Below are positions 14,614-55,715 of a stretch of DNA of 64,000 nt, piece after piece (within the stretch, counting starts at the first letter, position 1; each line of letters starts with the position of its first letter). The DNA comes from Roseomonas sp. (lineage in GTDB: Bacteria > Pseudomonadota > Alphaproteobacteria > Acetobacterales > Acetobacteraceae): contig JADCFA010000005.1 of NCBI GenBank assembly GCA_020249775.1, forward strand, positions 62,001 through 126,000, written 5' to 3'. The position numbers and the translations under genes are program-made. The notes below the pieces were generated by a model. The model worked only from the letters and a program-made list of their open reading frames with translations, did not search any database and was not told the origin of the DNA.

Positions 14614-14720
14614 CTAGTGCGTTTTCTGTTCACATGCGTTCACCAGTAACGCAGTAAATTTTTGTTTGATCGCATTTTCCGAACCGCCAAGCGATACCGC
14701 TTGGCTTGAAAATGCTCTGG
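14614..14720 (+). repeat. 107-bp two-hairpin repeat, copy C (diverged)
   Basis: Starts CTAGTGCG and ends TGCTCTGG. The 5' hairpin pairs TGCGTT with AACGCA and CTG with CAG around the loop GTTCAC-ATGC-GTTCAC. The linker is GTAAATTTTTGTTTGATC. The 3' hairpin pairs GCATTTTC with GAAAATGC and CCAAGCG with CGCTTGG around ATAC. It has the same length and layout as the copies at 27754 and 55609, about 60 of 107 positions identical to the 27754 copy by hand alignment, with paired changes in the stems. Lies between convergent genes. Confidence 0.8.
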
Positions 14721-14963
14721 GAAGTAGGGGATGCCCTAAAGGCCATATAAGTCCCCATCCTGTTCCCGCGCGCGACAGTCCCGCCCCCAACCGGCCGAGA
14801 TATTTTTCGCCAAAAACAAAGACGTTTTCAGTAAAAAACCGATGAATGCCCCTTCACCGCAGTCTGCACTCCTTTGTGAAAGCCACTCAACCTGTTTTGG
14901 CCGGAAGAATGCGCAAATTAAAGTCCGCATTCGGGCTTTGCACCGAAGGAAGCCAGACAGGCA
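14721..14963. other. intergenic stretch with no supported gene
   Basis: Together with the remnants before it, this completes a gene-free region of about 740 bases between the aminoacylase and GNAT genes. A weak stem (AATGCG/CGCATT around 14908-14931) lies shortly downstream of the GNAT stop. The open frames here show no family features. Confidence 0.5.
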
Positions 14964-15434
14964 CTAAAGCGAAGCCCTCGGATCGAGCCGCAGCACATAG
15001 GAACGCCAGGGAGCCCGGGCTGCGATACGCTCATAAAGCGCGATGGCGGCTTGATCGGTCTCGGGCACCATCCAGCGCAGATGTGACCAGCCACGCGCTG
15101 CGCCAAGCGCCGCGAGCGCTTCAATCAAGGCTTGTGCGACACCCTGACGGCGTGCGCCGGGGGCAACGAATAGATCATCCAGCGCGCCGCAGCGTCGGGC
15201 AAACACAATTTCCGGCAGGTCAAAAAACAGCGCGAAGCCCAATGGCGCGTCATTGCCAAAGGCCAACAGGATTTCCGCGCGCGGGTCATTGCTGATCAGG
15301 TCCATCATCGCCGCGGGCGTGGCGGGCGCGGCGCCAGCCAGATGCGGCGCCATTTCCGCGCCATAGGCGGCCAGCAGTGGCAGCAGCAGATGATGCTCAG
15401 GCGCCGACAGCAGGCGCGCTTCGAAATTCATCAC
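14964..15434 (-). CDS. GNAT-family N-acetyltransferase
   Basis: 156 residues. The acetyl-CoA-binding core is seen as LDDLFVAPGARRQGVAQALI (about 85-104, the Q/RxxGxG/A pyrophosphate loop as RRQGVA), followed by ARGWSHLRWMV and the C-terminal beta segment ALYERIAARAPWRSYVLRL. Transfers an acetyl group to an unknown amine. Two ATGs start the frame (15434 and 15431). No partner genes are adjacent. Confidence 0.85.
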   Translation of the reverse strand: MMNFEARLLSAPEHHLLLPLLAAYGAEMAPHLAGAAPATPAAMMDLISNDPRAEILLAFGNDAPLGFALFFDLPEIVFARRCGALDDLFVAPGARRQGVAQALIEALAALGAARGWSHLRWMVPETDQAAIALYERIAARAPWRSYVLRLDPRASL

Positions 15435-15506
15435 TCAGGGTCCAAAAGCACCTAGGGCGCCGCATGCTTGGCATGCGACGCCCCAGTGCCGGGATCCGGT
15501 AGCTAC

Positions 15507-15992
15507 TTAGCTCGCCGGGGTTTCGGCAGGCGCCGGAGCCGGAGCGGCCTTGCGGCGACGCGGAGCAGCCTTCTTCGCGGCAGGCTTCTTCGCAGCCTTC
15601 TTCGCAGCCGGCTTCTTCGCAGCCGCCTTCTTTGCGGCCGGCTTCTTCGCAGCAGCCTTCTTCGCGGCGGGCTTCTTCGCAGCAGCCTTCTTCGCAGCGG
15701 GCTTCCGCTTGGCGGCAGCCTTCTTCGCGGCGGGCTTCTTCGCAGCGGCCTTCTTTGCAGCCGGCTTCTTCTTGGCAGCAGCCTTCTTCGCAGCCGGCTT
15801 CTTCTTGGCAGCAGCCTTCTTTGCAGCCGGCTTCTTGGCAGCGGCCTTCTTCGCAGCCGGCTTCTTCGCAGCAGGCTTGCGCTTGGCCGGCGCCTTCTTC
15901 TTCGCCGCGGCCATGGCCATCGCCTGGGCGCGCGGGGTTTCTTCGGTTTCGGTAGTCTCGATGATATCAGTCATCAGAGGATGAATCTCCAT
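15507..15992 (-). CDS. histone H1-like Lys/Ala/Pro-repeat protein
   Basis: 161 residues. An acidic leader (TDIIETTETEETPR) is followed by about 110 residues of tandem KKPAAKKAAAKK-type repeats and a tail rich in Ala/Pro (APAPAPAETPAS). Such proteins resemble histone H1 C-terminal tails and bacterial AlgP/Hc1-like proteins and bind DNA non-specifically; a nucleoid role is inferred. The ATG at 15992 has AGGA 5 bases upstream; the ATG at 15974 is an alternative. The frame stays open to 16481, but that part is not protein-like. The repeats make this gene prone to length variation. Confidence 0.8.
   Translation of the reverse strand: MEIHPLMTDIIETTETEETPRAQAMAMAAAKKKAPAKRKPAAKKPAAKKAAAKKPAAKKAAAKKKPAAKKAAAKKKPAAKKAAAKKPAAKKAAAKRKPAAKKAAAKKPAAKKAAAKKPAAKKAAAKKPAAKKAAKKPAAKKAAPRRRKAAPAPAPAETPAS
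15560..15900. repeat. tandem short repeats inside the H1-like gene
   Basis: On the plus strand, units such as TTCTTCGCAGCCGGC and GCAGCCTTCTTCGCAG recur with small variations for about 340 bases. They are the coding repeats for AAKKPAAKK and are not spaced by unique sequence. Confidence 0.9.
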
Positions 15993-16499
15993 GTGTTCCT
16001 GTTGAAGGCGTTCATGGGAAGGCCGCGCTGGGCGCGACGCATTCCCAATTCCAACCCGGGGTACAGCAGGTGGGGTCGGTGATGGCGGCGACGCGCGGAT
16101 CCCGATGCGCGGACCGACAGGACTGAAAGTCTCCGCGAAGCGCAGCCGCCAGCAGCGAGACGGCGCGCGGCATTCCTGCGCGGCGTGTTCCCCCTGGCCT
16201 CTCTCCCGCCCCTTGCACATGCCATGATGGCGGCTTGGGGTGGTGTGGGACCCTGATCGCGTGAAGCGAAGCGTCCCTTGAGTCTGCGGTCCATGGACCG
16301 TCCTTCCCTGCTGCGGCAATTCTGCCTTGCCGATTGCAGCGCCTTCCCGCTTCATCGCGCCTGTTTCAGGTGATGCACCTGATGGGAGGAGCGATTTTTC
16401 GCAGCGCGGAGGCAGTGCGAATCGCGCAATAGAATCGCGCGCAACACACGCTATCTGCATCACCATGAGTCGTGTCAACAAAATCCGTCACATCTCGCA
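15993..16499. other. gene-free stretch upstream of the H1-like gene
   Basis: About 500 bases with no frame showing family features or a good ribosome site on either strand. It must contain the promoter of the H1-like gene; a long open minus frame (to 16481) runs through it in phase with that gene, but its composition is not protein-like. I see no convincing RNA gene. Confidence 0.4.
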
Positions 16500-16500
16500 G

Positions 16501-16531
16501 AAAAAAATGCGCGCATCGCTCTGCGATGCGC
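16501..16531 (-). terminator. intrinsic terminator of the prp operon
   Basis: Read on the minus strand, GCGCATCGC (16531-16523), loop AGA and GCGATGCGC (16519-16511) form a perfect 9-bp stem, followed within three bases by a run of seven T (16507-16501). It lies 83 bases downstream of the prpC stop and is correctly oriented for it. Confidence 0.8.
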
Positions 16532-16613
16532 TGAGTGTGACATGCATGCCGCAGCTTCACCGCCTGCGGCGCGCCTTCACCAGATCTGAAAAAATGATGA
16601 AGGCATCAGCAAA

Positions 16614-17750
16614 CTAACGTGCCGAAAGCGGTGGAACAGGGCGCTGATCAGGTCCCGTATACCAGGAAAGCGGACGGATCAGCCGATTATCCGCGCCTTG
16701 CTCGATCACATGCGCCGACCAGCCCGTGATGCGGGAAGCGACGAAGATCGGCGTGAAAAGCGGGATCTCAAAACCCATCAGGTAATAGGCCGGGCCTGCC
16801 GGGAAATCGAGATTCGGGTGGATGTTCTTCTTCTCCAGCATCTCGGCGGCCAGGATGCGGCTGATCTCCATCCAGGTCTTGTCGCCCACAACTTCGGCCA
16901 TTTTCTCGGCATATTTGCGCATGGTGGGCACGCGGCTATCGCCGGTCTTGTAGACGCGATGCCCAAAGCCCATCACCAGCGCCTTATGGTCGAAGCGGCT
17001 TTGAATCCATTCGCGGGCCAGCTTCGGGTCGCCGATTTCCTTCAGCGTATGCATCACCGCCTCATTGGCGCCGCCATGCAGCGGCCCCTTGAGCGAGGCG
17101 ATGCCCGCCGTGATCGCACCATGCATATCCGCACCTGAGGAGGTCACCAGCCGCGCCGTATAGGTGGAGGCGTTGAAGGTATGCTCGGCATAGAGGATCA
17201 TGGAAACATCAAAAGCCTTCAGCACTTCAGGCTGTGGCACCTTGCCCAGGATCAGGTTGAAGACATTCTCGGCAAAGCTATGCGCCGGGTTCGGCATCAC
17301 CACCGGCAGGCCGCGGGAAGCGCGATAGGCCGCTGCAATCGCCGTTGGGATTTTGGCGAAAAGCCGCTTCGCCTTGCGATATTGCGCGGGCAGCGAGACA
17401 TCGCCCGCTTCCGGGTCTTCCATGCCCATGAAGGATACGGCGGTGCGGATGGCATCCATCGGGTGCGCATCCTTGGGGAATTCGCGGATCACGCGATGCA
17501 GCGCGGGGCTGATCTCACGCTCGGCGGTAGTCTCGGCCTTGAAGGCGGCAAGCTGCTGGGCATTGGGCAATTCGCCTTCCCAGAGCAGATAGGCCACTTC
17601 CTCAAAGCTGCAATTCTCGGCCAAATCCTGCACCGCATAGCCGCGATAGGTCAGGCTATTTGTCTCCGGCATCACCTTGGACACAGCCGAGACATCGGCA
17701 TAGACGCCGACCAGGCCCTTATAGATTTCGGGTTTCGTGGTTTCGTTCAT
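16614..17750 (-). CDS. prpC: 2-methylcitrate synthase / citrate synthase
   Basis: 378 residues, the short PrpC-like type rather than the roughly 430-residue type II GltA. Condenses propionyl-CoA (or acetyl-CoA) with oxaloacetate. The active-site His in GPLHGGANEAV, the His in GFGHRVYKTGDSR and the Asp in NLDFPAGPAYYLMG are all present. I start it at the ATG at 17750; extending upstream adds non-family sequence. It lies 73 bases downstream of prpD on the same strand, which supports a methylcitrate-cycle role, though it may also act as citrate synthase. No prpB is in the window. Confidence 0.85.
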   Translation of the reverse strand: MNETTKPEIYKGLVGVYADVSAVSKVMPETNSLTYRGYAVQDLAENCSFEEVAYLLWEGELPNAQQLAAFKAETTAEREISPALHRVIREFPKDAHPMDAIRTAVSFMGMEDPEAGDVSLPAQYRKAKRLFAKIPTAIAAAYRASRGLPVVMPNPAHSFAENVFNLILGKVPQPEVLKAFDVSMILYAEHTFNASTYTARLVTSSGADMHGAITAGIASLKGPLHGGANEAVMHTLKEIGDPKLAREWIQSRFDHKALVMGFGHRVYKTGDSRVPTMRKYAEKMAEVVGDKTWMEISRILAAEMLEKKNIHPNLDFPAGPAYYLMGFEIPLFTPIFVASRITGWSAHVIEQGADNRLIRPLSWYTGPDQRPVPPLSAR

Positions 17751-17823
17751 TGGGTTTCTTCCCTTGCTTGGCAGCTTCGGGTCAGCGCCAATGGCGCCGA
17801 CCCTGCCTTCCTTAATGGTCAGT

Positions 17824-19350
17824 TCAGAAAATACCGGGCTTGCTGTCCAGCAGGCCGCCCGCCGGCAGCGCCACATTGAGCGCGCTGAGTTCGCCCGCCT
17901 TCAGCTTGGCCAAATCCTGCACCACTTCCAGGAAGCGGTTGGACTCGCGGCTTGAGATGATGCCATCGGTCAGCGTCTGGAATTTGCGGATGTAATCCGC
18001 CCGGCCGAAGGGCCTGGCGCCATTGGGGTGGGCATTGGCCACGCCAAGCTCATCCGTGAGGCGCGAGCCATCCTTGAACAGGATTTCGACGCGCCCGCCA
18101 AAAGAAAGCTCATTGGGGTCGCGGGAATGGTATTTGCGGGTCCATTCCGCATCCTCCCGCGTTTCGATCTTGTGCCAGAGCCGGACGGTATCGGCCCTTC
18201 CCGCCCGCTTCGGCGCATAGCTATCCACATGGTGCCAGCGCCCATCCTGCAGCGCGACCGCGAAGATATACATGATGGAGTGATCCAGCGTCTCACGGCT
18301 CGCCTTCGGGTCCATCTTTTGCGGGTCATTGGCGCCGGTGCCGATCACGTAATGGGTGTGATGGCTGGTATGGATGATGATCTTCTCGATCGCCTCCATA
18401 TCCGCGATCTGCTCACGCATGCGGAAGGCCAGGTCAATCAGGGCCTGGGATTGGTATTCGGCCGAGTGTTCCTTGGTGTAGGAATCAAGGATGGAGCGCT
18501 TGGGCTCGCCCGCTTCCGGCAGCGGCACTTCGTAATAGACCGGGCCATAGACATCCTTGCGGTTGGACCGCCCGGCAAGCACCCAGGCAATCACGCTGTC
18601 TTCGCCTTCATAAATCGGCGAAGGCGCGCCCTCGCCCCGCATGCAGCGATCCACCGCTTCGACGGCCAGCTTGCCGGCATGGGCCGGGGCATAGGCTTTC
18701 CAGGATGAAATCTCGCCCTTGCGGGATTGACGGAAAGAAATCGAGGTATGCAAAGCCTGCTGGATGGATTGGAAGACCACTTCCTGCTTCAGGCCAAGCA
18801 GCGTGCCAATGCCGGCAGCCGCCGCGGGGCAAAGATGGGCGATGTGGTCCACCTTATGTTCATGCAGGCAAATCGCGCGCACCAGATCAATATGCAGCTC
18901 ATAGCCGGTGGCAAGGCCACGGATCAGATCGCGACCGGATTTACCCATGGCCTGCGCCACCGCCAGGATCGGCGGGATATTGTCGCCAGGGTGGGAGTAA
19001 TCAGCGGCGAGGAACGTGTCGTGCATATCCAATTCACGCACGGCGGTGCCATTCGCCCAGGCTGCCCATTCGGGGGAGACGGTGGTGGCCGCCTTCACGC
19101 CAAATACCTGCGCGCCGCCGGCCTTCTTCGCATGGCCAAGCGCCATGCCGCGTGCCGAGACCACGGGGCGGCGATTGATGGCGGCGATGGCGACCGAAGC
19201 ATTGTCAATGATCCGGTTGATGATCATCTCCTGCACCGGCTTTTCGACCGCGACCTTGTCCACGGCGACTCCGGCCATTTTCCAGGCCAGTTGATCTTCG
19301 CGCTTCAATAGCGCCTTGGATGGGTGAACCTTTACGGCGTTGAGTTTCAT
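17824..19350 (-). CDS. prpD: 2-methylcitrate dehydratase (MmgE/PrpD family)
   Basis: 508 residues. Dehydrates 2-methylcitrate to cis-methylaconitate. MmgE/PrpD features include the [20 protein letters not shown] block, [20 protein letters not shown], and [20 protein letters not shown] with the conserved DHSxxY. The ATG at 19350 sits 10 bases after GGGAG; an ATG at 19359 is too close to it. Transcribed with prpC and divergent from a LysR gene that is a likely regulator. Other MmgE/PrpD enzymes (itaconate, iminodisuccinate) are less likely given prpC. Confidence 0.88.
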
Positions 19351-19488
19351 TTGGGGCATTCTCCCTTTCTTGTGTCTGGCGGCTTGCCTGATGCGCTTCT
19401 TCTGCGCCCATCTGGCGCCATCGTCCAATCCAATTGACGTGGCGCGCTGATAGGTTTTCCGTATGGGCGAAACAGTATTGGATCGCTC
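19351..19488. promoter_or_regulatory. divergent promoter region prpD / lysR
   Basis: 138 bases between divergently transcribed prpD and the LysR gene, the usual place for a LysR-type operator. I cannot point to one unambiguous T-N11-A site by eye. The arrangement alone supports the call. Confidence 0.45.
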
Positions 19489-20415: not shown

Positions 20416-20453
20416 GTTGCAAGCCTGTCATTGCGCAGCCGCAGGAGTAGCTA

Positions 20454-22122: not shown

Positions 22123-22190
22123 ACCCTGGCTTGTCGCCGGGGAGTGCTCGGCCCAAGGAAGGGCCTTTCATCATGCATGGAGAGAATGTG

Positions 22191-23667: not shown

Positions 23668-24608
23668 CACGCACTCTGCGCCTTGCCGGCGCCCAAATGG
23701 GACCGAACCAAAAAGCCGATAGCCGAGAGGCAATTCTGGCCCGCATGATCGCCTTGCTGGAACGGGCCGCTGCCGCGGGCGCGAAGATGGTGGTGTTCCC
23801 GGAATTGCCGCTGACCACGTTTTTCCCGCGCTGGCTGTTCACCGATCAGGCGGAATTGGACAGTTATTTTGAACGCGAAATGCCCAATCCGCGCGTGCAG
23901 CCGCTATTTGATCGCGCGCGCGCCTTGGGCATTGGCTTTTATCTTGGCTATGCGGAACTGACGCCGCATGGCAAGCGCTACAATACGGCCATCACGGTGG
24001 GGCCGGATGGCAGCGTGCTCGGAAAATATCGCAAAATCCATCTGCCCGGCACGGTGGAGCCGCGCATCGGTGATCGCTTCCAGCAATTGGAAAAGCGCTA
24101 TTTCGAATATGGCGATCTGGGCTTCCCCGCCTTTCGCGGCCCCGATGCCTGGGGCCGGCCCGTGCTTGGCATGTTGATCTGCAATGACCGCCGCTGGCCG
24201 GAAGCCTGGCGCTGCTATGGCTTGCAGGGGATTGAGCTAATGCTGATTGGCTATAACTCGGCCGCCTATGATCCGATGGGGGGCGATAGCGAAGACCAAT
24301 CGCTCCGCACCTTCCATTCGACGCTCGCGGTGCAGGGCAATGCCTATATGAACGCAACCTGGGCGATTTCGGTCGCCAAGGCGGGCGTCGAGGATGGCTC
24401 GGGCCTCATTGGTGGTTCGGTGATTGTGGACCCGAATGGCCGCGTGGTGGCGGAAGCTAAGACGCTGGGTGATGAGATCATCATCGCCGATGTGGATTTT
24501 GATGCCTGCCGCCAGGGGAAGGAGAAAATGTTCAACTTCGCCGCCCATCGCCGGCCGCAATGGTATCGCGCCATGATTGATCAGGTGGGGGCGGTGCCGC
24601 CGGCGTGA
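23664..24608 (+). CDS. N-carbamoyl-D-amino acid hydrolase-like nitrilase, paralogue 1
   Basis: 314 residues of the nitrilase superfamily. The catalytic triad is visible: Glu in VVFPELPLTTFFPRW (about 47), Lys in GKYRKIHLPG (about 117-126 region) and Cys in MLICNDRRWPEAWR (about 172). The CNDRRWPE context is typical of N-carbamoyl-D-amino acid amidohydrolases, which release ammonia, carbon dioxide and a D-amino acid. Starts 4 bases inside the end of the Bug gene. With the upstream cyclic amidohydrolase this forms a hydantoin-type route. Confidence 0.88.
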   Translation: MTRTLRLAGAQMGPNQKADSREAILARMIALLERAAAAGAKMVVFPELPLTTFFPRWLFTDQAELDSYFEREMPNPRVQPLFDRARALGIGFYLGYAELTPHGKRYNTAITVGPDGSVLGKYRKIHLPGTVEPRIGDRFQQLEKRYFEYGDLGFPAFRGPDAWGRPVLGMLICNDRRWPEAWRCYGLQGIELMLIGYNSAAYDPMGGDSEDQSLRTFHSTLAVQGNAYMNATWAISVAKAGVEDGSGLIGGSVIVDPNGRVVAEAKTLGDEIIIADVDFDACRQGKEKMFNFAAHRRPQWYRAMIDQVGAVPPA

Positions 24609-24655
24609 TGCGCGATGACACACTTATATACAGTGAGTAAGCGAAGGATCAGCGC

Positions 24656-25618
24656 ATGACCCGTTCCCTTGTTCTGGCCGCCGCGCAGCTGGGGCCGATC
24701 CAAAAGGCTGAAGGCCGCGATATTGCCGTTGGGCGCATGATCCGCCTGATGGAAAAGGCGCATCAACGCGGTGCTGAGGTCGTGGTCTTTCCCGAATTGG
24801 CGCTCACCACCTTCTTCCCGCGCTGGTATGAGGAAGATTTGGCCAATGCGGATCATTGGTATGAAGCGGCACTTCCTTCCAATGAAACCGCGCCGCTCTT
24901 TGAAGCCGCGCGCAAATACGGCATCGCCTTTCATCTTGGCTATGCCGAAAAAACGCCGGAAGGCAGGCGCTTCAATACCGCGGTCTTCGTGCTGCCTTCA
25001 GGCGAGATCGTGCTCAAATACCGCAAGGTTCATTTGCCGGGGCATAAGGAATTCGATCCCGTCCGCCATGTGCAGCATCTGGAAAAGCGCTATTTTGAAC
25101 CGGGTGATCTTGGCTTTCCCGTGATCCGCGCGCCGGTTGCAGGCCAGCCTGTCAATCTTGGCATGATGATCTGTAATGACCGCCGATGGCCGGAAGCCTG
25201 GCGCGTGATGGGCTTGCAGCAGGTGGAATTGGTCATGCTTGGCTACAATACGCCATCACTGAATATGGAAAATCGTGGCTTTGAAGCGCCTCATCTCCGC
25301 GTCTTCCATAGCCATCTCTCCATCCAATCCGGGTGCTATCAGAATTCATGCTTTGCGGTCGCAACCGCCAAGGCCGGCACGGAAGATGGGCATGAGCTGT
25401 TCGGCCATTCCATCATCGTGAACCCGCAAGGGGAGATCATGGCCCAGGCGACAAGCTGGGATGATGAGTTGATCGTGGCCGAAGCTGACCTCGGCAAATG
25501 CGAATTGGGCCGGAAGACCATTTTCGATTTCGCGCGCCATCGCCGCCCGGAACATTATGGCCGCATCGCCGAACAGGTGGGCAGCGTGGCGCCGGCGGAA
25601 TGGAAAGGCGGCGCGTAG
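24656..25618 (+). CDS. N-carbamoyl-D-amino acid hydrolase-like nitrilase, paralogue 2
   Basis: 320 residues, clearly homologous to the gene just upstream along its whole length. Catalytic Glu (VVFPELALTTFFPRW), Lys (LKYRKVHLPGHKEFDP) and Cys (MMICNDRRWPEAWRVMG) are all kept, and the GYNTPS and GCYQNSCFAVATAKAG blocks are closer to characterised N-carbamoyl-D-amino acid hydrolases. The 47-base gap holds AAGCGAAGGATCAGCGC, so it has its own ribosome site. The two enzymes may split substrate range. Its stop is 2 bases from that of the convergent dehydrogenase gene. Confidence 0.9.
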   Translation: MTRSLVLAAAQLGPIQKAEGRDIAVGRMIRLMEKAHQRGAEVVVFPELALTTFFPRWYEEDLANADHWYEAALPSNETAPLFEAARKYGIAFHLGYAEKTPEGRRFNTAVFVLPSGEIVLKYRKVHLPGHKEFDPVRHVQHLEKRYFEPGDLGFPVIRAPVAGQPVNLGMMICNDRRWPEAWRVMGLQQVELVMLGYNTPSLNMENRGFEAPHLRVFHSHLSIQSGCYQNSCFAVATAKAGTEDGHELFGHSIIVNPQGEIMAQATSWDDELIVAEADLGKCELGRKTIFDFARHRRPEHYGRIAEQVGSVAPAEWKGGA

Positions 25619-25620
25619 GG

Positions 25621-26886: not shown

Positions 26887-26896
26887 ATTCTTATGA

Positions 26897-27753: not shown

Positions 27754-27860
27754 CTAGAGCATGTTGCGTTCACATGGGTTCACGCAACCTGCTCTAAATT
27801 GTTGTTTTTCGAGCATCTTCACACGTTCAGATGATTCCATCTGAACGTGATCTGCTCTAG
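27754..27860 (+). repeat. 107-bp two-hairpin repeat, copy A
   Basis: Begins CTAGAGCA and ends TGCTCTAG (8-bp terminal inverted repeat). The 5' hairpin pairs AGAGCA with TGCTCT and GTTGCGT with ACGCAAC around a loop holding GTTCAC-ATGG-GTTCAC. A T-rich linker GTTGTTTTTC follows. The 3' hairpin is an 11-bp perfect stem, ACGTTCAGATG/CATCTGAACGT, with loop ATTC. It fills the gap between convergent upp and the ABC ATPase gene, whose TAG stop (27857-27859) is part of the terminal CTAG. 99 of 107 bases match the copy at 55609. Confidence 0.9.
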
Positions 27861-28591
27861 GCTTCTGGCCCCAGGACCTCGGCCACCGGGCCATCCGCCA
27901 CAATCCGCCCCGCTTCCAGCCTTATGGCGCGCGTGCACCATTGCCGCACAATCGCCATATCATGCGTCGCAATCATCAGGATATCCGCCCCGGCGACCAG
28001 GCGCGTCAGGCGTTCTTCTGCCTTCGTCATGAAATCCGCATCGACAGCCAAAAACCATTCATCCATGAGCAGAATTTCAGGGGTGATCGCGGTTGCCATG
28101 GCGAAGGAAAGGCGCACATTCATGCCGGCGGAATAGCCCCGGATAGGCAGATCAATGAATTCGCCAAGTCCGGAAAATTCAGCGACCTCATCGGCCAGGG
28201 CGCGGCCTTCTTTTTCCCTCATGCCACGGTAGAGCGCACGCAGCACGATATTCTCCCGCCCGGTCAAAAGCGGATTCATCCCGGCACCGGGGTCAATCAG
28301 GGAGCCGATCTCCCCCTCCACCAACAACCGGCCGGCAACCGGTTCGTAAATGCCTGCTATACTGCGTAGCAGCGTTGTCTTGCCCGCACCATTCGAACCC
28401 ACCAGCGCCACGCGTTCGCCCTTGCTGATGGTGAAGCTTAACCCGGCCAAGGCAGCGACCACCACGCGGCTTTCCGCATCCCGCTTCACACGGCGCGTGG
28501 CGCCATCAAAAATGCGCTTTTTCAATGATCGCGCATTGTGATGATAAAGCGGAAACTCGATCGTCAGGTCTTCGGCTTCAATGCGGGGCAT
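27857..28591 (-). CDS. polysaccharide ABC exporter, ATP-binding subunit (KpsT/Wzt-like)
   Basis: 244 residues. Walker A GSNGAGKTTLLR near 84-95, followed by GRENIVLRALYRGM, a signature region around FIDLPIRGYSAGMNVRLSFA and the Walker B LLMDEWFLAVD. The YSxGMxxRLxF pattern is typical of KpsT/Wzt/TagH exporters. It drives export of a polysaccharide across the inner membrane with the permease gene 5 bases upstream. It has no C-terminal carbohydrate-binding domain of the Wzt type. The stop codon lies inside the adjacent repeat. Confidence 0.9.
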   Translation of the reverse strand: MPRIEAEDLTIEFPLYHHNARSLKKRIFDGATRRVKRDAESRVVVAALAGLSFTISKGERVALVGSNGAGKTTLLRSIAGIYEPVAGRLLVEGEIGSLIDPGAGMNPLLTGRENIVLRALYRGMREKEGRALADEVAEFSGLGEFIDLPIRGYSAGMNVRLSFAMATAITPEILLMDEWFLAVDADFMTKAEERLTRLVAGADILMIATHDMAIVRQWCTRAIRLEAGRIVADGPVAEVLGPEA

Positions 28592-31023: not shown

Positions 31024-32013
31024 ATGATGACGCAAAGCTCTTTCATTTCACGCCGGGGCGTGCTGGCCGCAACCGGGGCGGTGCTCGCAGCCCCTGGCCT
31101 TGCCCTCGCGCAGGGGCGCTACCCTGATCGGCCCATTCAGCTTGTGGTGCCCTGGCCTGCCGGCGGTTCCGCAGATGCGCAATTGCGCTCCATCGCCGAA
31201 CTGGTCGGCAAGGCGCTCGGCCAGCCCATGGTGGTGCAAAACCGCCCGGGCGCTGGCGGCACGCTCGGCCCGCTGACCGTCGCACAACAGGCGCGGCCTG
31301 ATGGCTATACGCTGACGCAGATGCATCTTTCCGTGCTGCGCCGGCCCTGGATGATGCGCACACCCGGCTGGGACCCTATTGGCGATTTCACGCATATCAT
31401 CGGCATGACCGGCTGGCTTTTCGGCACTGCCGTCAAGGCCGATAGCCCGCTCAAATCCTGGCAGGATCTGATTGCCTATGCGCGCGCCAATCCGGGCAAG
31501 CTGACCTATTCGACCAGCGGTATTGGCACCACCAATCACCTTGCCATGGAAAGCATTCAGGAAATCGAAAAGATCAGCCTGACCCATGTGCCCTTCCGCG
31601 GCGCCAATGAAGGTGTCACCGCCGTGCTTTCCGGCCAGGTGGATATGATTTGCGATAGCTCCACCTGGGCGCCCAATGTGGAAGCCGGGCAAATGCGCGC
31701 CCTTGCGGTCTGGAGCGCGGAACGCGCCCCGCGCTTCCCCGCCGTGCCCACCTTGAAGGAGCTTGGCTATGATATGGTCGTCGCCTCCCCCTATGGCGTG
31801 AGCGGCCCCAAGGGCATGGACCCCGGCATTGTGCGCGTGCTGCATGACGCCATGAAGGACGCGCTGTTCAGCCCCGAAAATACGCGCATCCGTAGCCAAT
31901 TCGATATGCCCTTGGTCTATCACGATACGGAAAGCTATCGTCGCTTCATCCTTGAGCGGGTCGAATACGAAAAGACCATGGTGCGCCGCCTTGGCTTGAC
32001 GCTGGATGGCTGA
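31024..32013 (+). CDS. Bug-type (TTT family) solute-binding receptor
   Basis: 329 residues. The signal peptide has a twin-Arg start (ISRRGVLAATGAVLAAPG), then GRYPDRPIQLVVPWPAGGSA. Family marks: GQPMVVQNRPGAGGTLG, RPDGYTL, STSGIGTTNHLAMES, THVPFRGANEGVTAVLSGQ and VPTLKELGYDMVV. GGGAGGAAGC precedes the ATG at 31024. Paired with a second, related receptor 10 bases downstream; both differ from most Bugs in the long TYSTSGIxTTNH block, suggesting local duplication. Ligand unknown. Confidence 0.92.
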   Translation: MMTQSSFISRRGVLAATGAVLAAPGLALAQGRYPDRPIQLVVPWPAGGSADAQLRSIAELVGKALGQPMVVQNRPGAGGTLGPLTVAQQARPDGYTLTQMHLSVLRRPWMMRTPGWDPIGDFTHIIGMTGWLFGTAVKADSPLKSWQDLIAYARANPGKLTYSTSGIGTTNHLAMESIQEIEKISLTHVPFRGANEGVTAVLSGQVDMICDSSTWAPNVEAGQMRALAVWSAERAPRFPAVPTLKELGYDMVVASPYGVSGPKGMDPGIVRVLHDAMKDALFSPENTRIRSQFDMPLVYHDTESYRRFILERVEYEKTMVRRLGLTLDG

Positions 32014-32023
32014 GGGCAGCGCC

Positions 32024-32992
32024 ATGGTGACATTCCATCGCCGCGCGGCGCTTTCCCTTGGCGCGAGCCTTTTGGCCGCACCCGCCCTTGGGCAAGGCCG
32101 CTTTCCCAATCGGCCCATTCGCTTCATCACACCCTGGCCGCCCGGCGGCTCGCTCGATGTGCTTCAACGCAGCATGTTCGAAGTGGTGAGGAAGGACCTC
32201 GGCCAACCAATCCTGTCCGAGAATCTGCCCGGCGCGCGCGGCACCCGCGCCGCCACCTTCCTGGTCACGCAAGGCGTGCCCGATGGCTATACGCTGGCGC
32301 ATCATCATCTTTCCGTCCTGCGCCACCCTTTCCTGACCAGGCAGCCAAGCTGTGACCCGGTGAATGACTTCAGCTACATCATGCAATTCTCGGGCTTTAC
32401 CTTCGGGACCGTGGTGCGCACCGATAGCCCCTATCAGCGCCTGGCCGATGTATTCGCTGAAGCCCGCCGCAAGCCCGGCGAGCTGACCTATTCCACCAGC
32501 GGCATCGCCACCACCAACCATATCGCCATGGAAGACCTGCTCCGCCGCGAAAAGGCGGAAATGACCCATGTGCCCTATCGCGGCGCGCAGGAAGGTGTGA
32601 CCGCCCTGCTCGGCCGGCAAATCACCATGGTCGCCGACGCGCAAGTCTGGCGCCCGCAAGTGGAAGCGGGCGAATTCCGCCTGCTAAGCGTCTGGACGCG
32701 TGATCGCCTGGGCGGCTTTCCCAATGCGCCAACACTCAATGAACTCGGCTACGATATGGTGGTCACCAGCCCCTATGGCGTGGTCGGGCCACGCGGCATG
32801 CCGGGGGAAATCGTCGAAATCCTTCACAACGCCTTCAAAAAAGCCTGGGAAGATGAATCATCTCAGGCCGTGGTGCGCCGCTGGGACATGCCGCGCGAAT
32901 ATCTGAATACCGCGGATTATCTGGCCTTTGTGAAGGCGCGGGTGGAATATGAAAAGGAATGGGTGCAGCGACTGAATCTCAGCATTGACTGA
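32024..32992 (+). CDS. Bug-type (TTT family) solute-binding receptor, tandem paralogue
   Basis: 322 residues. Signal peptide TFHRRAALSLGASLLAAPAL, then GRFPNRPIRFITPWPPGGSL. Shares the TYSTSGIATTNHIAMEDLL, THVPYRGAQEGVTALLGRQ and LNELGYDMVVTSPYGVVGP blocks with the gene before it, pointing to tandem duplication. The ATG at 32024 is 7 bases after GAGGG; an ATG at 32006 overlapping the previous stop is an alternative. Ends at a bidirectional terminator facing odhB. Confidence 0.92.
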   Translation: MVTFHRRAALSLGASLLAAPALGQGRFPNRPIRFITPWPPGGSLDVLQRSMFEVVRKDLGQPILSENLPGARGTRAATFLVTQGVPDGYTLAHHHLSVLRHPFLTRQPSCDPVNDFSYIMQFSGFTFGTVVRTDSPYQRLADVFAEARRKPGELTYSTSGIATTNHIAMEDLLRREKAEMTHVPYRGAQEGVTALLGRQITMVADAQVWRPQVEAGEFRLLSVWTRDRLGGFPNAPTLNELGYDMVVTSPYGVVGPRGMPGEIVEILHNAFKKAWEDESSQAVVRRWDMPREYLNTADYLAFVKARVEYEKEWVQRLNLSID

Positions 32993-47257: not shown

Positions 47258-47268
47258 GGGAGGCTTCC

Positions 47269-48249: not shown

Positions 48250-48411
48250 GGTGAGCCATCCAAAATGAAGGCCTAGTATACACATCGGCAACTTCTCCAT
48301 CGCAGATCGATTAAAAACAAGTAGCCAGAGGATGTTTAAAATGATTTAGGTATACCTTCGCTGACGAAATGAACGACTCCTTAAGAGAACCACGATCGAT
48401 CCGCAGGGGAG

Positions 48412-50767: not shown

Positions 50768-50781
50768 CGGCGCCCCAAAAA

Positions 50782-50807
50782 GCGTGATCCGCCTTTCCGG
50801 ATCACGC
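50782..50807 (+). terminator. hairpin downstream of recA
   Basis: GCGTGATCCG (50782-50791), loop CCTTTC and CGGATCACGC (50798-50807) form a perfect 10-bp stem 15 bases after the recA stop, followed by CCCTGTTTCC, a weak T-run. Probably the recA terminator. The GTGATCC/GGATCAC core is shared with the palindrome at 60846. Confidence 0.6.
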
Positions 50808-51138
50808 CCCTGTTTCCGTCCTTATTGCGTGTCTGGTTCAACTCGGTTGACTGGCCAGATACTGCGCTCAGTGAGTCTGGTTGCAAGCCAACCGGCCGCG
50901 CTGGTCGTCGTGAAAAATGCAACAAGGCACGGAATCCGGCAGGGCCTAGCCCCATCGCCCGGCGAGCAGAAAATCGGATAACCCAGGACTTCATGCGGGG
51001 CGGGCTAAGGCTGGAAAAAAACGCGCTGGATATACCAGCCTCGATCGCCATCCGCGCAAAAGGCTATGCACCAATCTATCAGCACCGGCGGGCGAAAGCC
51101 CGGCTTCTTCAAAATAAGCTGCGGGGAAAAGGAGGCGA
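50808..51138. other. intergenic stretch after recA
   Basis: About 330 bases with open frames on both strands (for example a plus frame at 50825-51160) but no ribosome site or recognisable protein features. Nothing further supported. Confidence 0.4.
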
Positions 51139-51234
51139 ATGGCAAACCCGCCCGGATTGACCAACGGGGCCACTCCAGGAACTATCGAAGCGTCCGCCCC
51201 GGTCCAGCCTGTGCCAAAACCATGGGCCGACTGA
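51139..51234 (+). CDS. possible 31-residue small protein
   Basis: An ATG at 51139 is preceded by the near-perfect ribosome site AAAAGGAGGCGA and opens a 31-codon frame (MANPPGLTNGATPGTIEASA, then VQPVPKPWAD) ending at 51234. It overlaps the 3' end of the lytic transglycosylase gene on the other strand by 53 bases. No family known; the strong ribosome site is the only support. Confidence 0.25.
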   Translation: MANPPGLTNGATPGTIEASAPVQPVPKPWAD

Positions 51235-52051
51235 CCGCGTGAATCGGAGCTGAGCGATACGCATCAAGCCCACGTCCCGGTGAAGCGCCACCCGCCGCCC
51301 CGCCCAGCGCGCCCCCGCCACCTTCCAAGGGGATAACCCGCGCACGTTCCGCCCGATTGCTCAGCGAAATGCCTCCCGCACTCGCCAGCGCCACGCTCCC
51401 CCAACCGCCGCGCAGCCGCGCCAGCGCCAGGGCCTCGGCTGAGCTATCCCCGGCATTGCGCGCTTCCTGTTCCCAGGCGGCCAGCACCTTTTCGCGGTAT
51501 GGCCCAGCCCTTTCGGGTGTTTGTGAGTGGTAATGCCCCGCCGCCTGGCGCCAATCCGACCGCCCGCCATTCAACTCGGTCAGGAAGCGCGCCGCGTAAC
51601 GGGCATTGATCAGCGGGTCGAAAGCCTGCTCCAGCGAGGTAAAAGCATTAGGGTGATGATGCAGGTTCACCTGCATGCAGCCGACGTCAATGATTCGCAC
51701 GCCGCGCGCCTGCAATTGCCGCACATGGGCAATGGCTGCCTCTCTGGTTGGGAAATATTTGCCTTCCCCCTCGGCGTTTATTGTCCAGGGCCAGGGGGCG
51801 AATTGGCCGGTTTCGGGGTCGCGGCGACCGGATTCAACGCGGCCGATTGCCTGCAAAAGCCCGCGTGGCAAATTGGCGCCGCGCTCGGCCTCGGCAATGG
51901 CGGCGCGGCATAAATGGCCTTCGCTGAAGCCCCTAGCCGGTACGGCCTGCGCCGCCGCGCCTGATGGCGATAACGCCAAGCCAAGCAGGGCGGCAAGCGT
52001 AAGTGCCACCCTGCGAAGGGCGCGTTCCAGAAAGGGTTGGGCCAAAATCAT
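51182..52051 (-). CDS. lytic transglycosylase, SLT-domain
   Basis: 289 residues from the ATG at 52051 (GAAGG 2 bases upstream). Signal peptide ERALRRVALTLAALLGLALS ending near GAAAQ. The transglycosylase domain shows GLLQAIGRVESGRRD with the catalytic Glu, the INAEGEGKYFPTREAA block, DVGCMQVNLHHHPNAFTSLE and NARYAARFLTEL. Cleaves peptidoglycan glycan strands to anhydro-muropeptides in the periplasm. The frame is open to 52171, but the extra N-terminus would overlap the promoter of the small RNA candidate. May serve flagellar or secretion assembly; not shown. Confidence 0.85.
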   Translation of the reverse strand: MILAQPFLERALRRVALTLAALLGLALSPSGAAAQAVPARGFSEGHLCRAAIAEAERGANLPRGLLQAIGRVESGRRDPETGQFAPWPWTINAEGEGKYFPTREAAIAHVRQLQARGVRIIDVGCMQVNLHHHPNAFTSLEQAFDPLINARYAARFLTELNGGRSDWRQAAGHYHSQTPERAGPYREKVLAAWEQEARNAGDSSAEALALARLRGGWGSVALASAGGISLSNRAERARVIPLEGGGGALGGAAGGASPGRGLDAYRSAPIHAVSRPMVLAQAGPGRTLR

Positions 52052-52165
52052 GACCTTCGCCAGGGCAAGCCGCGTGCCAGCTTTACCGCTACCCGGCGGA
52101 AAACACGCAAGAAACCTATGGTTGATATTGCAAAAGCCCATTTTGCTGCGCTGCAAAAAATAATC

Positions 52166-52194
52166 TTGCAAAGCGCGGAGCAGGCACCTATATC
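52166..52194 (+). promoter_or_regulatory. sigma-70-type promoter for the small RNA candidate
   Basis: TTGCAA (52166-52171) and TATATC (52189-52194) are spaced by exactly 17 bases. Predicted start is about 52201, where a hairpin-terminator unit begins. Confidence 0.5.
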
Positions 52195-52200
52195 CGCCGC

Positions 52201-52278
52201 GTGCGACGGTTTCCGTTGCACATTCTTGGACGTTTCCTCCCTAAACTTGGCGGTGCCTTCGGGCACCGCCCTTTTTTT
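52201..52278 (+). ncRNA. putative trans-acting small RNA (MmgR/ar8-like candidate)
   Basis: About 78 nt. The 5' hairpin GTGCGACGG-TTT-CCGTTGCAC (9 pairs, one G-U) is followed by a single-stranded stretch carrying TTTCCTCCCT (52233-52242). A strong terminator, GGCGGTGCC-TTCG-GGCACCGCC, ends in seven T (52249-52278) with a UUCG tetraloop. No plus-strand gene ends here; both flanking genes are on the minus strand. The exposed CCUCCC could pair with Shine-Dalgarno sequences. From memory, UUUCCUCCCU is the invariant stretch of the alphaproteobacterial MmgR family, about the same size; this needs a covariance search. Confidence 0.6.
52249..52278 (+). terminator. UUCG-capped intrinsic terminator
   Basis: 9-bp stem GGCGGTGCC/GGCACCGCC closed by TTCG, then C and seven T. 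Oriented for the plus strand only; it ends the small RNA candidate. Confidence 0.9.
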
Positions 52279-53167
52279 ATCCTGGGGCTGCCGGGGCCAG
52301 GAAATCCCATTCCACGCGCGCCAGGCTTTCAATCAGCCCGCTCATATCGCGGCGTAGCGGGCCAAAGCCCGGAAGGCGTTCGATCCGGGTTTCGTCCATA
52401 TAAAGGCTGCGCGCCACTTCCACTTGCAGCGCATGGGTCGCTTCCCGCGGGCGGCCATAATGGCGGGTGACAAAGCCCCCCGCATAGGGGTCGTTGCGCC
52501 TGACCTTATAGCCAAGGCCCATCAAGGCTTCCTCTACCAGGCGGGTCGCGCGCGGGATACATGCTGTGCCATGAGCGTCTCCCAACACAAAATGTGGTGG
52601 GTTGGCCAGATGCGCGGGATGGGCCGGCATGGAATGGCAATCAATCAGCAGGCAAAAGCCAAACATCGCCCGGGTCTCCGCGATCAACCCGGCCAGCGCG
52701 GCGTGATAGGGTTCCCAACAGGCGCGGATGCGGGCCTCGGCCTCGGCAAAGCTCAGCTTGCGGCGGTAGATTTGCTCGCCGCCGGTGACGATCCGCGCGA
52801 GCGTACCAAGCCCCGCCCCGACACGGGGGCTCGCGCTATTGACCCAAGGCGGCAGGGGTTCGGTGAACATGGCGGGGTCCAATTCCCAGGCTTCCCGGTT
52901 CACATCGCACCAGACCCGGGGGAAGCAGGCAGCGATCAACGGGGCGCCATGGGCGGGGGCCGCGGCAAAGAGCTCATCCACGAAGGAATCCTCGCTCCGG
53001 CGAAGTGCAATGGGGTCCATCCGGGCGTCCAAAAGCAGTTGGTCCGGATATTGCTGACCCGAATGAGGTGATGCGAAGACCAGGGGGATGGTCTGACGTT
53101 CCGGCCGCTTGATAAGGTAGGGCTCCGCTTTGGCAGCCTCTTGGGCGGGAAAAAAGGAGGAATTCAT
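52277..53167 (-). CDS. N-formylglutamate amidohydrolase family protein
   Basis: 296 residues from the ATG at 53167; a GTG at 53206 would add 13. Family blocks: VFASPHSGQQYPDQLL (metal His), CFPRVWCDVNREAWELDPAM, LLIDCHSMPAHPAHL and VRRNDPYAGGFVTRHYGRP. Hydrolyses N-formylglutamate or a related N-acyl amino acid. No hut genes are nearby, so the histidine pathway is not implied. The ribosome site is poor for either start. Confidence 0.85.
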   Translation of the reverse strand: MNSSFFPAQEAAKAEPYLIKRPERQTIPLVFASPHSGQQYPDQLLLDARMDPIALRRSEDSFVDELFAAAPAHGAPLIAACFPRVWCDVNREAWELDPAMFTEPLPPWVNSASPRVGAGLGTLARIVTGGEQIYRRKLSFAEAEARIRACWEPYHAALAGLIAETRAMFGFCLLIDCHSMPAHPAHLANPPHFVLGDAHGTACIPRATRLVEEALMGLGYKVRRNDPYAGGFVTRHYGRPREATHALQVEVARSLYMDETRIERLPGFGPLRRDMSGLIESLARVEWDFLAPAAPG

Positions 53168-53277
53168 GGAAAATATCTCAAAATCACGCTTAAGCCCTTC
53201 CGTCACTCTGGCGCTTCACCGGTGAAATGGCGCTATGTATTAGCTGATTTTAGGTTTTAGGGGCTATACGACGATTC

Positions 53278-54336
53278 ATGGCGCGCAAAGGTAGAGGCTC
53301 GCAAAGCGGCGGTGATTTGATTATCGTCCGCAAGGAAGAAGGGGGCGCGCACGCACATCACGGCGGCGCCTGGAAGGTTGCCTATGCCGATTTCGTGACG
53401 GCAATGATGGCCTTCTTCCTTCTGATGTGGCTGATCAATGCCACCACCGAAGAACAACGCCGCGGCATCGCGGATTACTTTAATCCGACCAATGTGCTGT
53501 CGAGATCCGATTCAGGCTCTGGCAGGCCCTTTGGCGGCCAGACGCCGAATGACAATGCGCGTTTGATGTCCACCACCGGCACAATCGAGGTCCAACCCGG
53601 CAAGCGCCCAGTAGTGATGGATATTGATGAGGATGATAGCCAAACCCCAGCCGAACCCGTGCCAAGGCGTGAGGGCCCGCGGGGCCAAGAAGATGCTGAA
53701 ACCGCTCGGCTGGTGATTCGCACGCCGCCCGGCGTCCTGGCGGGTCCGGAACAACCCCGCGGCGGACCGGCGGCCGAGCCTTCCCCGGAGCAGAAGCCGG
53801 AAAATGTCGGCGAGACTGAATTGCGCCAGGAACTTGCTCGGCGCGAACGCGAAGCTTTTGAAACTGCCGCTCAACAAATTCGCGAAGCGGTGCGATCGGA
53901 TCCAGCCCTTGCTGATCTCAATCGTCAATTGCTGATCGAGCAAACGCCAGAGGGCATGCGCATCCAATTGGTGGATGCGGACCGCCAGCCCATGTTTGCG
54001 CTGGGCGGCGCCGCGCCCAATGATCGCGCCCGGGCTTTGTTGCTGCGCGTCGCGCAGGTGATCCAGCGCCTGCCCAACAATATCAGCATTGCGGGCCATA
54101 CCGATGCCACGCCCTTCCGCGGCGGGGGTGAGCGCAGCAATTGGGACCTTTCGACCGAACGCGCCAATGTCACGCGCCGGCTACTGATTGACGCCGGCGT
54201 GGCAGATAACCGCATAAGAAACCTGACAGGCCATGCGGAACGTGACCTGTTGATCCCGGAACAACCAACCGCTGCTGCCAATCGCCGCGTTTCCATCACA
54301 CTGATCCGTCAGTCGCCGGAGACACCACGTCCATGA
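53278..54336 (+). CDS. motB: flagellar motor protein MotB
   Basis: 352 residues. The N-terminal cytoplasmic part has VRKEEGGAHAHHGGAWKVAY; a single membrane segment holds the proton-carrying Asp38 in YADFVTAMMAFFLLMWLI. An OmpA-type peptidoglycan-binding domain occupies the C-terminus (NISIAGHTDATPFRGGG, LSTERANVTRRLLIDAGV). Part of the proton-driven stator. It overlaps motA by 4 bases (ATGA) and, unusually, precedes it. Confidence 0.94.
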   Translation: MARKGRGSQSGGDLIIVRKEEGGAHAHHGGAWKVAYADFVTAMMAFFLLMWLINATTEEQRRGIADYFNPTNVLSRSDSGSGRPFGGQTPNDNARLMSTTGTIEVQPGKRPVVMDIDEDDSQTPAEPVPRREGPRGQEDAETARLVIRTPPGVLAGPEQPRGGPAAEPSPEQKPENVGETELRQELARREREAFETAAQQIREAVRSDPALADLNRQLLIEQTPEGMRIQLVDADRQPMFALGGAAPNDRARALLLRVAQVIQRLPNNISIAGHTDATPFRGGGERSNWDLSTERANVTRRLLIDAGVADNRIRNLTGHAERDLLIPEQPTAAANRRVSITLIRQSPETPRP

Positions 54337-55196
54337 TCTCAATCGTCGGTTTCATTTTTGTTCTGATCTGCGTTTTTGGTGGCTATATGGCTGCCGGGGG
54401 GAAGATCGACATTATTCTGCAGGCGCTGCCCTTCGAATTCGCAATTATCGGCGGCGCGGCCCTTGGCTCTCTACTTATGGCCAATAGCTTATCCGAGGTT
54501 AAACATATCTTCGGGGGTGTCGGCAAAATCCTGAAGGGCGGCAAGTATAGACGCCAGGATTACATGGAATTGCTGAGCCTGCTTTTCTGGCTTGTACGTC
54601 TTGCGCAGACGAAGGGGCCCATGGCGATAGAACCGCATATTGAAAAGCCCGAAGAAAGCGCCGCCTTTCAGAAATTTCCGGGCATTTTGAAGGATCATTA
54701 TACAGTCGCCATCATCTGCGATTATCTTCGCATGGTCGGCATGAATGCCGATGACCCGCATCAGATCGAAGATGTGATGGCGCGCGAATTGAAAAAAATG
54801 AAGGAAGAGGAATTGCACAGCGCCCATGCGCTGCAACAGGTGGCCGATGCGCTACCCGCGCTCGGTATCGTTGCCGCCGTGATGGGCGTGATCAAGACTA
54901 TGGCATCCATTGACCAGCCCCCGGCAATCCTGGGCAAGATGATCGGTAGCGCGCTGGTTGGTACTTTTCTTGGCGTTTTGCTCTCCTACGGGCTGGTCGG
55001 GCCCCTCGCCGCACGCCTCAAGGCCGTGATCGAAGAGGAGGCGAAGTATTATGAGGTGATCCGGGCGGTACTGGTCGCGCATCTGCATGGCAATGCGCCG
55101 CAGGTGGCGGTAGAAACTGGCCGCAAAATGGTCCCGACCGATCTGATGCCGAGCTTCCTCGAGGTGGAAGAATCTCTGCAAGACCTTAAAATTTAA
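54333..55196 (+). CDS. motA: flagellar motor stator protein MotA
   Basis: 287 residues. Membrane segments at the start (IVGFIFVLICVFGGYMAAGG), around LPFEFAIIGGAALGSLLMAN and two near 188-235 (LGIVAAVMGVIKTMASID, ALVGTFLGVLLSYGLVGPLA, which carries the conserved Pro). A cytoplasmic loop with charged residues contacts the rotor. Forms the MotA5B2 stator with MotB. Start overlaps the motB stop. No other flagellar genes in the window. Confidence 0.94.
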   Translation: MISIVGFIFVLICVFGGYMAAGGKIDIILQALPFEFAIIGGAALGSLLMANSLSEVKHIFGGVGKILKGGKYRRQDYMELLSLLFWLVRLAQTKGPMAIEPHIEKPEESAAFQKFPGILKDHYTVAIICDYLRMVGMNADDPHQIEDVMARELKKMKEEELHSAHALQQVADALPALGIVAAVMGVIKTMASIDQPPAILGKMIGSALVGTFLGVLLSYGLVGPLAARLKAVIEEEAKYYEVIRAVLVAHLHGNAPQVAVETGRKMVPTDLMPSFLEVEESLQDLKI

Positions 55197-55554
55197 TGGG
55201 CGTGCCTCATCGCTGTTGCGCGCGCTCCTGCCCGAACCGATCATCTCTGATGTTGGCTTGCCTGCTCCACTGCGAGCGGTCTCATTGCAGGGTCTATTGG
55301 TAACTTTGTGCGCGATGTCGGTTTTGTTCATCAGACCACGAACCCTTCGCCGAATAGGATGGCGAATTGGGTTTTAGATTGACGCTGCTCGACCGGTGAT
55401 CGCCTTCATTCCTCGACCGCTCGATTGGGAACAAGACATAACAGCTGCAAGGCTACCGCTTCAGCCGGGAGTTGGCGAGGCGTGCGCGCCGTATGCGAGG
55501 CTTCGCATTCAGGGCCCCGATAGCAATCTTGTCACACGCTTCCCACGTTTCCAT
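55197..55554. other. intergenic region after motA
   Basis: About 360 bases without a supported gene. An open plus frame (55396-55689) runs into the repeat at 55609 and has no protein features. Repeats follow at 55555 and 55609. Confidence 0.45.
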
Positions 55555-55591
55555 AGCGGTTTCCGTTCACCCTGGTTCGCAGGGAACCGCT
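55555..55591 (+). repeat. half copy of the two-hairpin repeat (5' arm only), copy E
   Basis: AGCGGTT (55555-55561) pairs with AACCGCT (55585-55591), with inner stem CCCTG/CAGGG. Inside lies GTTCAC-CCTG-GTTCGC, the same two-unit loop as the full copies. No 3' hairpin follows before copy B starts 17 bases on. Confidence 0.5.
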
Positions 55592-55608
55592 TGACCATCA
55601 CGGATACT

Positions 55609-55715
55609 CTAGAGCGTGTTGCGTTCACATATGTTCACGCCACCCGCTCTACCTCGTTGTTTTTCGAGCATCTTCACACGTTCAGATGATTCCATCTGAA
55701 CGTGATCTGCTCTAG
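55609..55715 (+). repeat. 107-bp two-hairpin repeat, copy B
   Basis: CTAGAGCG to TGCTCTAG. Differs from the 27754 copy at 8 positions, all in the first 47 bases; the last 60 are identical. At the 5' stem base, A8 to G is matched by T37 to C, keeping AGAGCG/CGCTCT paired. The 3' hairpin is the same perfect 11-bp stem. It lies between convergent motA and nagZ, ending 14 bases before the nagZ stop. Confidence 0.9.

Follow-up and report, generated by a model that had tools for sequence, protein, structure and literature searches.

Two-hairpin intergenic repeats of a Roseomonas genome as probable IS630-type miniature elements related to CIR

Results

Repeat copies in the window

We analysed a family of two-hairpin repeats in a window of 64,000 nucleotides of Roseomonas sp. 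(GenBank assembly GCA_020249775.1, contig JADCFA010000005.1, positions 62,001 to 126,000; positions below are those of the window). An earlier note, made from the letters of this window alone, had described three copies of 107 bp and supposed that they might belong to a known class of alphaproteobacterial intergenic repeats. All three are real, and a described family of the same anatomy exists, namely CIR, reportedly the Caulobacter CcrM-associated intergenic repeats of Chen and Shapiro (2003). We distinguish type A copies, which resemble the copy at 14614, and type B copies, which resemble that at 27754; R1 denotes a covariance model built from 14 type A copies. The repeats and their parts are as follows, where ORF stands for open reading frame.

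14614-14720 (+): type A copy; 5′ hairpin 14615-14656, 3′ hairpin 14672-14715; R1 E value 8.1e-20
27754-27860 (+): type B copy lying between convergently oriented ORFs; 5′ hairpin 27755-27796, linker 27797-27810, 3′ hairpin 27811-27857
55609-55715 (+): type B copy, 99/107 identical to the 27754 copy
62218-62322 (-): degenerate fourth copy, found by the models only; R2 E value 9.2e-5, R1 E value 1.9e-5 (contig coordinates C45:124218-124322)
27755-27782 (+): terminal repeat at the left end of the 27754 copy; tip TAGAGC, positions 23-27 GGTTC
27832-27859 (-): terminal repeat at the right end of the 27754 copy, in the direction from the tip inwards; tip TAGAGC, positions 23-27 GAATC
27833-27837 (no strand assigned): CcrM-type site (GANTC) within the loop of the 3′ hairpin of the 27754 copy
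55688-55692 (no strand assigned): CcrM-type site (GANTC) within the loop of the 3′ hairpin of the 55609 copy

The type A copy shares 60 of 107 positions with the 27754 copy and 58 with the 55609 copy, compared with a mean of 26 and a maximum of 42 identities between the 14614 copy and 2000 random 107-mers of the window. The change from A-T to G-C in the 5′ stem between the two close copies, likewise pointed out before, is present (rows L001 and L011, columns 8 and 37). The earlier observation was right and understated, and it overlooked the degenerate copy at 62218-62322 (-). A weaker R2 match at 55551-55652 (-), with an E value of 0.0044, overlaps the 55609 copy. The last CTAG of the 27754 copy provides the TAG stop of the minus-strand ORF 27857-28591, and the inner block of the 3′ end of the 14614 copy is GTATC, which is not a GANTC site.

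The family in its own genome

In the whole genome (4.07 Mb), 34 type B copies were found at E≤1e-24. One pair, with its members on different contigs, is 100% identical, and near-identical copies have unrelated flanks. Type A gives at least 48 genome matches (40 of 74 candidates scored), many of which consist of the 3′ hairpin module by itself or in head-to-tail order. With R1 we obtained 107 matches at E≤0.01, some of them overlapping (150 of 1441 candidates scored), so that further copies, on whose absence the earlier proposal would have fallen, do exist. Because the R1 matches include 32 of the 34 type B places, types A and B form one family. Head-to-tail arrays of the 3′ module with a period of about 57-58 bp lie at L252 7471-7744, L220 2992-3153 and G000:C4:28912-29127. 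The 3′ half thus appears able to multiply without the 5′ half.

Based on crude ORF calls, 57 of 58 classifiable copies are intergenic; 25 of these lie in convergent, 27 in tandem and 5 in divergent gaps. The corresponding numbers are 32, 61 and 44 for 137 background gaps in two relatives, and 39, 50 and 17 for 106 adjacent ORF pairs of the same loci. The share of divergent gaps among the copies is nearer to that of the same loci than to that of the background, which weakens the apparent depletion. Between tandem genes, 15 copies point in the direction of the genes and 12 in the opposite direction.

Signs of mobility

Tandem copies have one CTAG in common (in opposite orientations in L171), as would result if a new copy had inserted at the terminal TA of an earlier one. 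Outside the two TAs, the base preceding the left one and the base following the right one vary independently and the inner G and C are mostly constant, a pattern that fits a 2-bp duplication. It bears on whether the repeats could instead be miniature inverted-repeat transposable elements (MITEs) that go with an IS5-family element and duplicate 4 bp (YTAR). Some IS5-family elements use CTAG-like or YTAR targets, and the targets seen here are CTAG-like; the four bases at the two ends, however, often differ (TTAG..CTAG, CTAG..CTAA), as a 2-bp TA duplication predicts, and the ends resemble those of IS630 elements in tip and inner block in a comparison made with IS630 ends only. We consider an IS5 origin highly improbable.

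We then compared the flanks of 245 element places in 372 sequences, overlapping loci being counted more than once, and retained cases with a small gap and no fewer than 150 aligned bp on either flank. Of the resulting 21 rows, 11 were removed: two tandem (L355/L363), two with negative gaps (L140, L149), one duplicate (L068) and six with gaps of 26-71 (L254, L122, L217, L318, L284, L291/L230). What remains are ten distinct sites that are empty in a relative, with flanks 83-94% identical and, in nine of the ten, alignments that come to 10 bp or less from both borders. TA occurs in the residue of five sites (TTAA in L028, CCTTAT, CTAT, TTA, ATAA); in four of these TA follows directly after the first residue base, for which the probability of at least 4 of 10 at 1/16 is 0.0024. 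For the window copies themselves no empty sites were found, their flanks not being adjacent in the relatives searched. Among the rows set aside, L355 carries two tandem type B copies (13324-13534) where the relative L363, about 95% identical nearby, has one (~4949-5053).

Terminal repeats shared with IS630 elements

The genome contains four DDE_3 matches, the best of which (L090, on G000:C2) is an IS630 element of 1049 bp with the ends TAGAGCGAGATGACGTTTGGGTGAATCG and TAGACCATGATGACATTACGCTGCACCA. Its transposase is split into two frames, both of which match the IS630 family NF033545, one above its cut-off. An eight-A run (L090 1992-1999) lies between the helix-turn-helix and the DDE parts; it resembles the runs of programmed frameshifting. 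The genome thus holds IS630 genes; the transposase of the other class that had been suggested, in contrast, was not found. The repeats are palindromic, intergenic and present in many copies with a tetranucleotide at the hairpin base, as repetitive extragenic palindromic (REP) or BIME-type repeats moved by a RAYT (Y1) transposase would be; yet Y1_Tnp (PF01797) has no match in the genome at E≤1, and 10 of 14 control genomes do match, six of them over the cut-off. That the repeats are of the REP/RAYT kind is scarcely credible.

To define the ends of IS630 elements, we counted pairs of TA-initiated hexamers enclosing the IS630 DDE domain in 30 loci, six of which are too short for both ends. TAGAGC ranks top of all 256 TA+4-mers (9/30 loci), and TAGAG[CT] encloses the domain in 10/30 loci vs a shuffle mean of 0.81 and maximum of 3. 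Beyond the tip, IS630 ends have a second, weaker block at 23-28. The ends of the 27754 copy, TAGAGCATGTTGCGTTCACATGGGTTCA and TAGAGCAGATCACGTTCAGATGGAATCA, share this plan. In a comparison of 6 element ends with 22 insertion-sequence ends, the right end of the 27754 copy matches the L090 upstream end beyond the tip better than each of 2000 shuffles. The two type B ends are also alike beyond the tip (0/5000 shuffles). Repeat ends therefore share tip, inner block and GANTC register (see below) with IS630 terminal repeats, and the match is weaker for type A. The IS630 elements of Alphaproteobacteria (for example ISRm2011-2, L397) have the same 28-nt ends, TAGAGC tip, inner block at 22-28 and GANTC at 23-27 of one end, and differ from the repeats in being ~1.05 kb long and carrying a transposase.

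The GANTC register and CcrM

GANTC occupies positions 23-27 of the transposase-upstream end in 18/18 IS630 rows (16 distinct) and of the other end in 0/18, where 17 of the rows were selected by their tips among 42 of 49 IS630 loci and the eighteenth, L195, was added by hand, the automatic choice for this locus having been another pair, which has no GANTC. Seven loci had been left out as duplicates or cut short (L091, L192, L209, L213, L214, L215, L392); the 42 comprise 18 with no candidate pair, 7 with a weaker pair that has no GANTC and 17 with a strong pair. Eight loci of named IS630 elements (8 of 60 matches listed among 779 records) were added to the comparison; both ends were not found for L398, L401 and L402. 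Three of the four alphaproteobacterial elements with both ends found agree with the register (S. meliloti ISRm2011-2, Azospirillum, Novosphingobium). A Hymenobacter (Bacteroidota) element has TAGAGC tips and no GANTC. The site is likewise missing from an Azotobacter copy in which the left end alone is clear.

In the repeats, represented by alignment A6 with 71 rows, GANTC starts exactly at position 23 in 36 three-prime and 9 five-prime ends, and never in both ends of one copy. The loop segments carry GANTC in 46/71 copies compared with a mean of 6.7 and a maximum of 16 in shuffles, the 3′-loop rate, unlike the 5′-loop cases, being biased upward because the models derive mainly from Acetobacteraceae-like copies with a GATTC 3′ loop. 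By type, the loop contains GANTC in 27/30 type B and 6/14 type A copies; in the class-wide alignment A5, exactly one loop carries it in 25/33 rows and both loops in none. Among the genes of the own genome is a CcrM homologue (N6_N4_Mtase and RAMA domains; NF050803 E 5.7e-180, 598 bits vs a curated cut-off of 830).

Both the loop enrichment and the CcrM homologue would also suit a domesticated CcrM/GcrA regulatory site, in which the repeats are no longer mobile and are kept for cell-cycle control of nearby genes. The low number of copies in divergent gaps, the sites empty in relatives and the identity of the GANTC register with that of the IS630 end speak against domestication, which we regard as very unlikely. 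Whether, instead, alphaproteobacterial IS630 elements and the CIR-type MITEs that go with them bear a CcrM switch conserved in evolution, with GANTC at 23-27 of the transposase-side end only and methylation after replication licensing transposase binding or expression, is a proposal that we judge evenly balanced between right and wrong.

Hairpin pairing as a property of DNA

In alignment A6, 91.1% of cells pair and 29 of 31 pairs are changed on both sides, with a covariation score of 0.607, where shuffles give 0.191 (0/500 reach the score) and sliding the partners gives no more than 0.102; this alignment was fitted to the structure, its rows are related, and it includes three weak matches that overlap better ones. 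Alignment A2, which was not model-fitted, gives 0.182 compared with 0.109 (0/500 shuffles) and 10 pairs with changes in both partners; its pair types are no more numerous than those of shuffles (222/500 reach the number). The covariation seen between the window copies is thus kept in a larger alignment. The view that structure and not sequence is selected holds in part: the stems do vary by paired changes, but the TA-GAGC tips and the inner block 22-28 nt from the tip, often GANTC, are conserved.

One-strand RNA pairing should tolerate G-U and not A-C mismatches. A6 contains 63 G-U vs 64 A-C cells, A1 7 vs 25, A2 17 vs 19 and A5 23 vs 41; A4 alone leans to G-U (49 vs 31), 16 of its 49 G-U cells coming from two column pairs. 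For comparison, 19 tRNAs in the same DNA show 28 G-U vs 0 A-C, their stems having been chosen by ARAGORN, which favours allowed pairs. Given the equal counts, we read the palindromes as a property of DNA: they look kept as DNA and not as one-strand RNA, and the pairing is no evidence of an RNA.

A structured RNA or an RNA-processing or terminator element, the hairpins of which act in transcripts and whose RNA pairing is selected, is accordingly improbable. It draws on the very strong covariation, on the position of copies at gene 3′ ends (25/57 between convergent genes vs 32/137 background gaps) and on a survey of S. meliloti in which transcription is reported for 26 REP elements and 16 repeats (PMC2873474). 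Besides the G-U balance, it has against it that copies lie in both orientations to tandem genes and that the window copies have no Rfam match at the gathering score; an Rfam check had been suggested earlier, and the window scan yields only tRNA and suhB.

Spread across bacteria

R1 matches 28 of 150 genomes of an order sample at E≤1e-6 (12 of 41 genera), and R2 matches 43 of 385 genomes of a class sample of Alphaproteobacteria at E≤1e-5 (35 of 277 genera); both counts include the own genome and, with few candidates scored per genome, are lower bounds. Named full-length matches come from Sphingobium, two Novosphingobium species and Roseinatronobacter. In a search of named Rhizobiales megaplasmids that covered 5 of 13 requested records, R3 finds 14 places on pSymB, 5 on pSymA, 1 on R. 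etli p42f, 2 on M. extorquens and 1 on A. fabrum pAt at E≤0.01. It finds none at E≤1 in 400 kb of three non-alphaproteobacterial megaplasmids. A pattern scan of genome contigs gave at least 104 stretches, mostly in Roseomonas, Siccirubricoccus, 'Asaia' and Rhodospirillales records, with a few from Novosphingobium, Sphingobium, Sphingomonas and Rhizobium among the matches listed. BLAST of one copy against plasmids returned weak Mesorhizobium hits only.

Other features of the window

The window further contains a suhB/mmgR small RNA (52211-52285, +; Rfam RF00519, E 1.9e-8), an array of 15/18-bp direct repeats that overlaps ORFs (15544-15945), and diverged direct repeats at 31465-32800 and 23778-25256 with spacings of 982 and 992 bp, as from tandemly duplicated genes.

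Discussion

The repeats are probably IS630-type (Tc1/mariner-like) MITEs that belong with the CIR-type repeats of Alphaproteobacteria. We propose that each end is a 28-nt terminal repeat like that of a local IS630 clade, with a TA-GAGC tip and an inner block at 22-28, and that both hairpins arise from a partial inverted copy following each terminal repeat. A transposase of the IS630 type, supplied in trans, would bind to the two ends and place the element at TA, often within CTAG, and TA would be duplicated as a rule. Many copies have as the inner block of one of their ends a GANTC, the CcrM methylation site, which in IS630 elements lies in the end on the upstream side of the gene for the transposase. 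The methylation state, changing with every round of replication, may tune transposase binding or expression and tie movement to the cell cycle, by analogy with Dam methylation, which controls IS10. The arms may be kept complementary by template switching or by a need for cruciforms.

Several observations weigh against this explanation. (i) As to the transposase, the resident one lies in two frames, and the non-resident IS630 element L197 matches type B better than the resident L090 does, the TA-flanked arms of which are by themselves no better than shuffles (16 vs 16). (ii) As to the ends, those of a type A copy do not resemble each other past the tip (p 0.37), the 3′ side of most type A rows ends other than in CTAG, and the 3′ tips of type A are often degenerate. 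(iii) As to insertion, the residue of five of the ten empty sites has no TA (GATGGC, TTGA, CTGACC, CC, TTTC), the right flank of L028, whose residue has TA, stays unaligned over 45 bp, precise loss could also account for an empty site, and transposition is inferred here, not seen. (iv) As to GANTC, a Methylobacterium IS630 element has TAGAGC ends and no such site, 26/71 repeats in A6 and 8/14 in A2 have none, and among the 23 matches found on the named plasmids from Rhizobiales (S. meliloti, R. etli, M. extorquens, A. fabrum) 20 have none at 23-27 and 3 have one. Finally, the MITE model alone leaves the palindromic nature of each end unexplained.

Other known systems provide further points of comparison. 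RIME of Rhizobium/Sinorhizobium (Osteras 1995) is a palindromic mosaic intergenic element of similar size, and Bru-RS1 and Bru-RS2 of Brucella (Halling and Bricker 1994) are repeated palindromic elements of ~103-105 bp and of two related types. Likened by description only, RIME and Bru-RS may belong with the CIR-type repeats. R3 matches lie on pSymB and pSymA, the likeness to RIME being one of description and not of its sequence; the S. meliloti matches mostly have no GANTC at 23-27. RUP of Streptococcus pneumoniae, as presented by a review by Delihas in a section apart from that on CIR, is 107 bp long, has about a hundred intergenic copies and is probably moved by IS630 with a TA target (PMC2229807). 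It agrees with the present repeats in length, copy number and intergenic position, movement by an IS630 element at TA being proposed for both, and differs in host phylum and in the IS630 element concerned. A Paracoccus MITE in print is, according to the part of the paper available, IS1182-like and hence not the present repeat (PMC11578231).

CIR in Caulobacter and Brucella are described, in the same review by Delihas, as intergenic elements of about 110 bp with TA at the termini, two inverted-repeat arms with a linker and GANTC in one terminal loop, whereas the other repeats treated there have no arms or linker and form a stem from 5′-3′ end pairing (PMC2229807). The present element is a CIR-type repeat by anatomy, compared with CIR through the description and not through Caulobacter sequences: it is alphaproteobacterial and intergenic, comprises two arms and a linker over ~110 bp, has GANTC in one loop, and ends in TA tips in most rows. 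The available part of the review lists no terminal inverted repeat for CIR, gives the target-site duplication as '?' and calls for more information on mobility (PMC2229807); the present repeats, in contrast, have IS630-like ends, empty sites in relatives and GANTC in an IS630-type end. A 2024 review of MITEs calls CIR strictly intergenic, and the term IS630 is absent from its text (PMC10969869). Our literature search, in openly licensed papers only, found, among the papers listed, none that joins CIR to IS630; the probable IS630 origin and the one-sided GANTC are the new points here.

CIR are tied to the cell-cycle methylase CcrM, and the part of the review available leaves unsettled how they move and what the methylation site does (PMC2229807). 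Shared ends, empty sites and a fixed GANTC register provide a concrete, bench-testable answer. Strong covariation by itself is no sign of an RNA, of which the equal G-U and A-C counts are a reminder. If the IS630 origin is true, CIR-type repeats, and perhaps RIME and Bru-RS too, are IS630-derived. If the methylation switch is true as well, it would be the CcrM counterpart of the control of IS10 by Dam and would explain why the methylation site lies in just one CIR hairpin.

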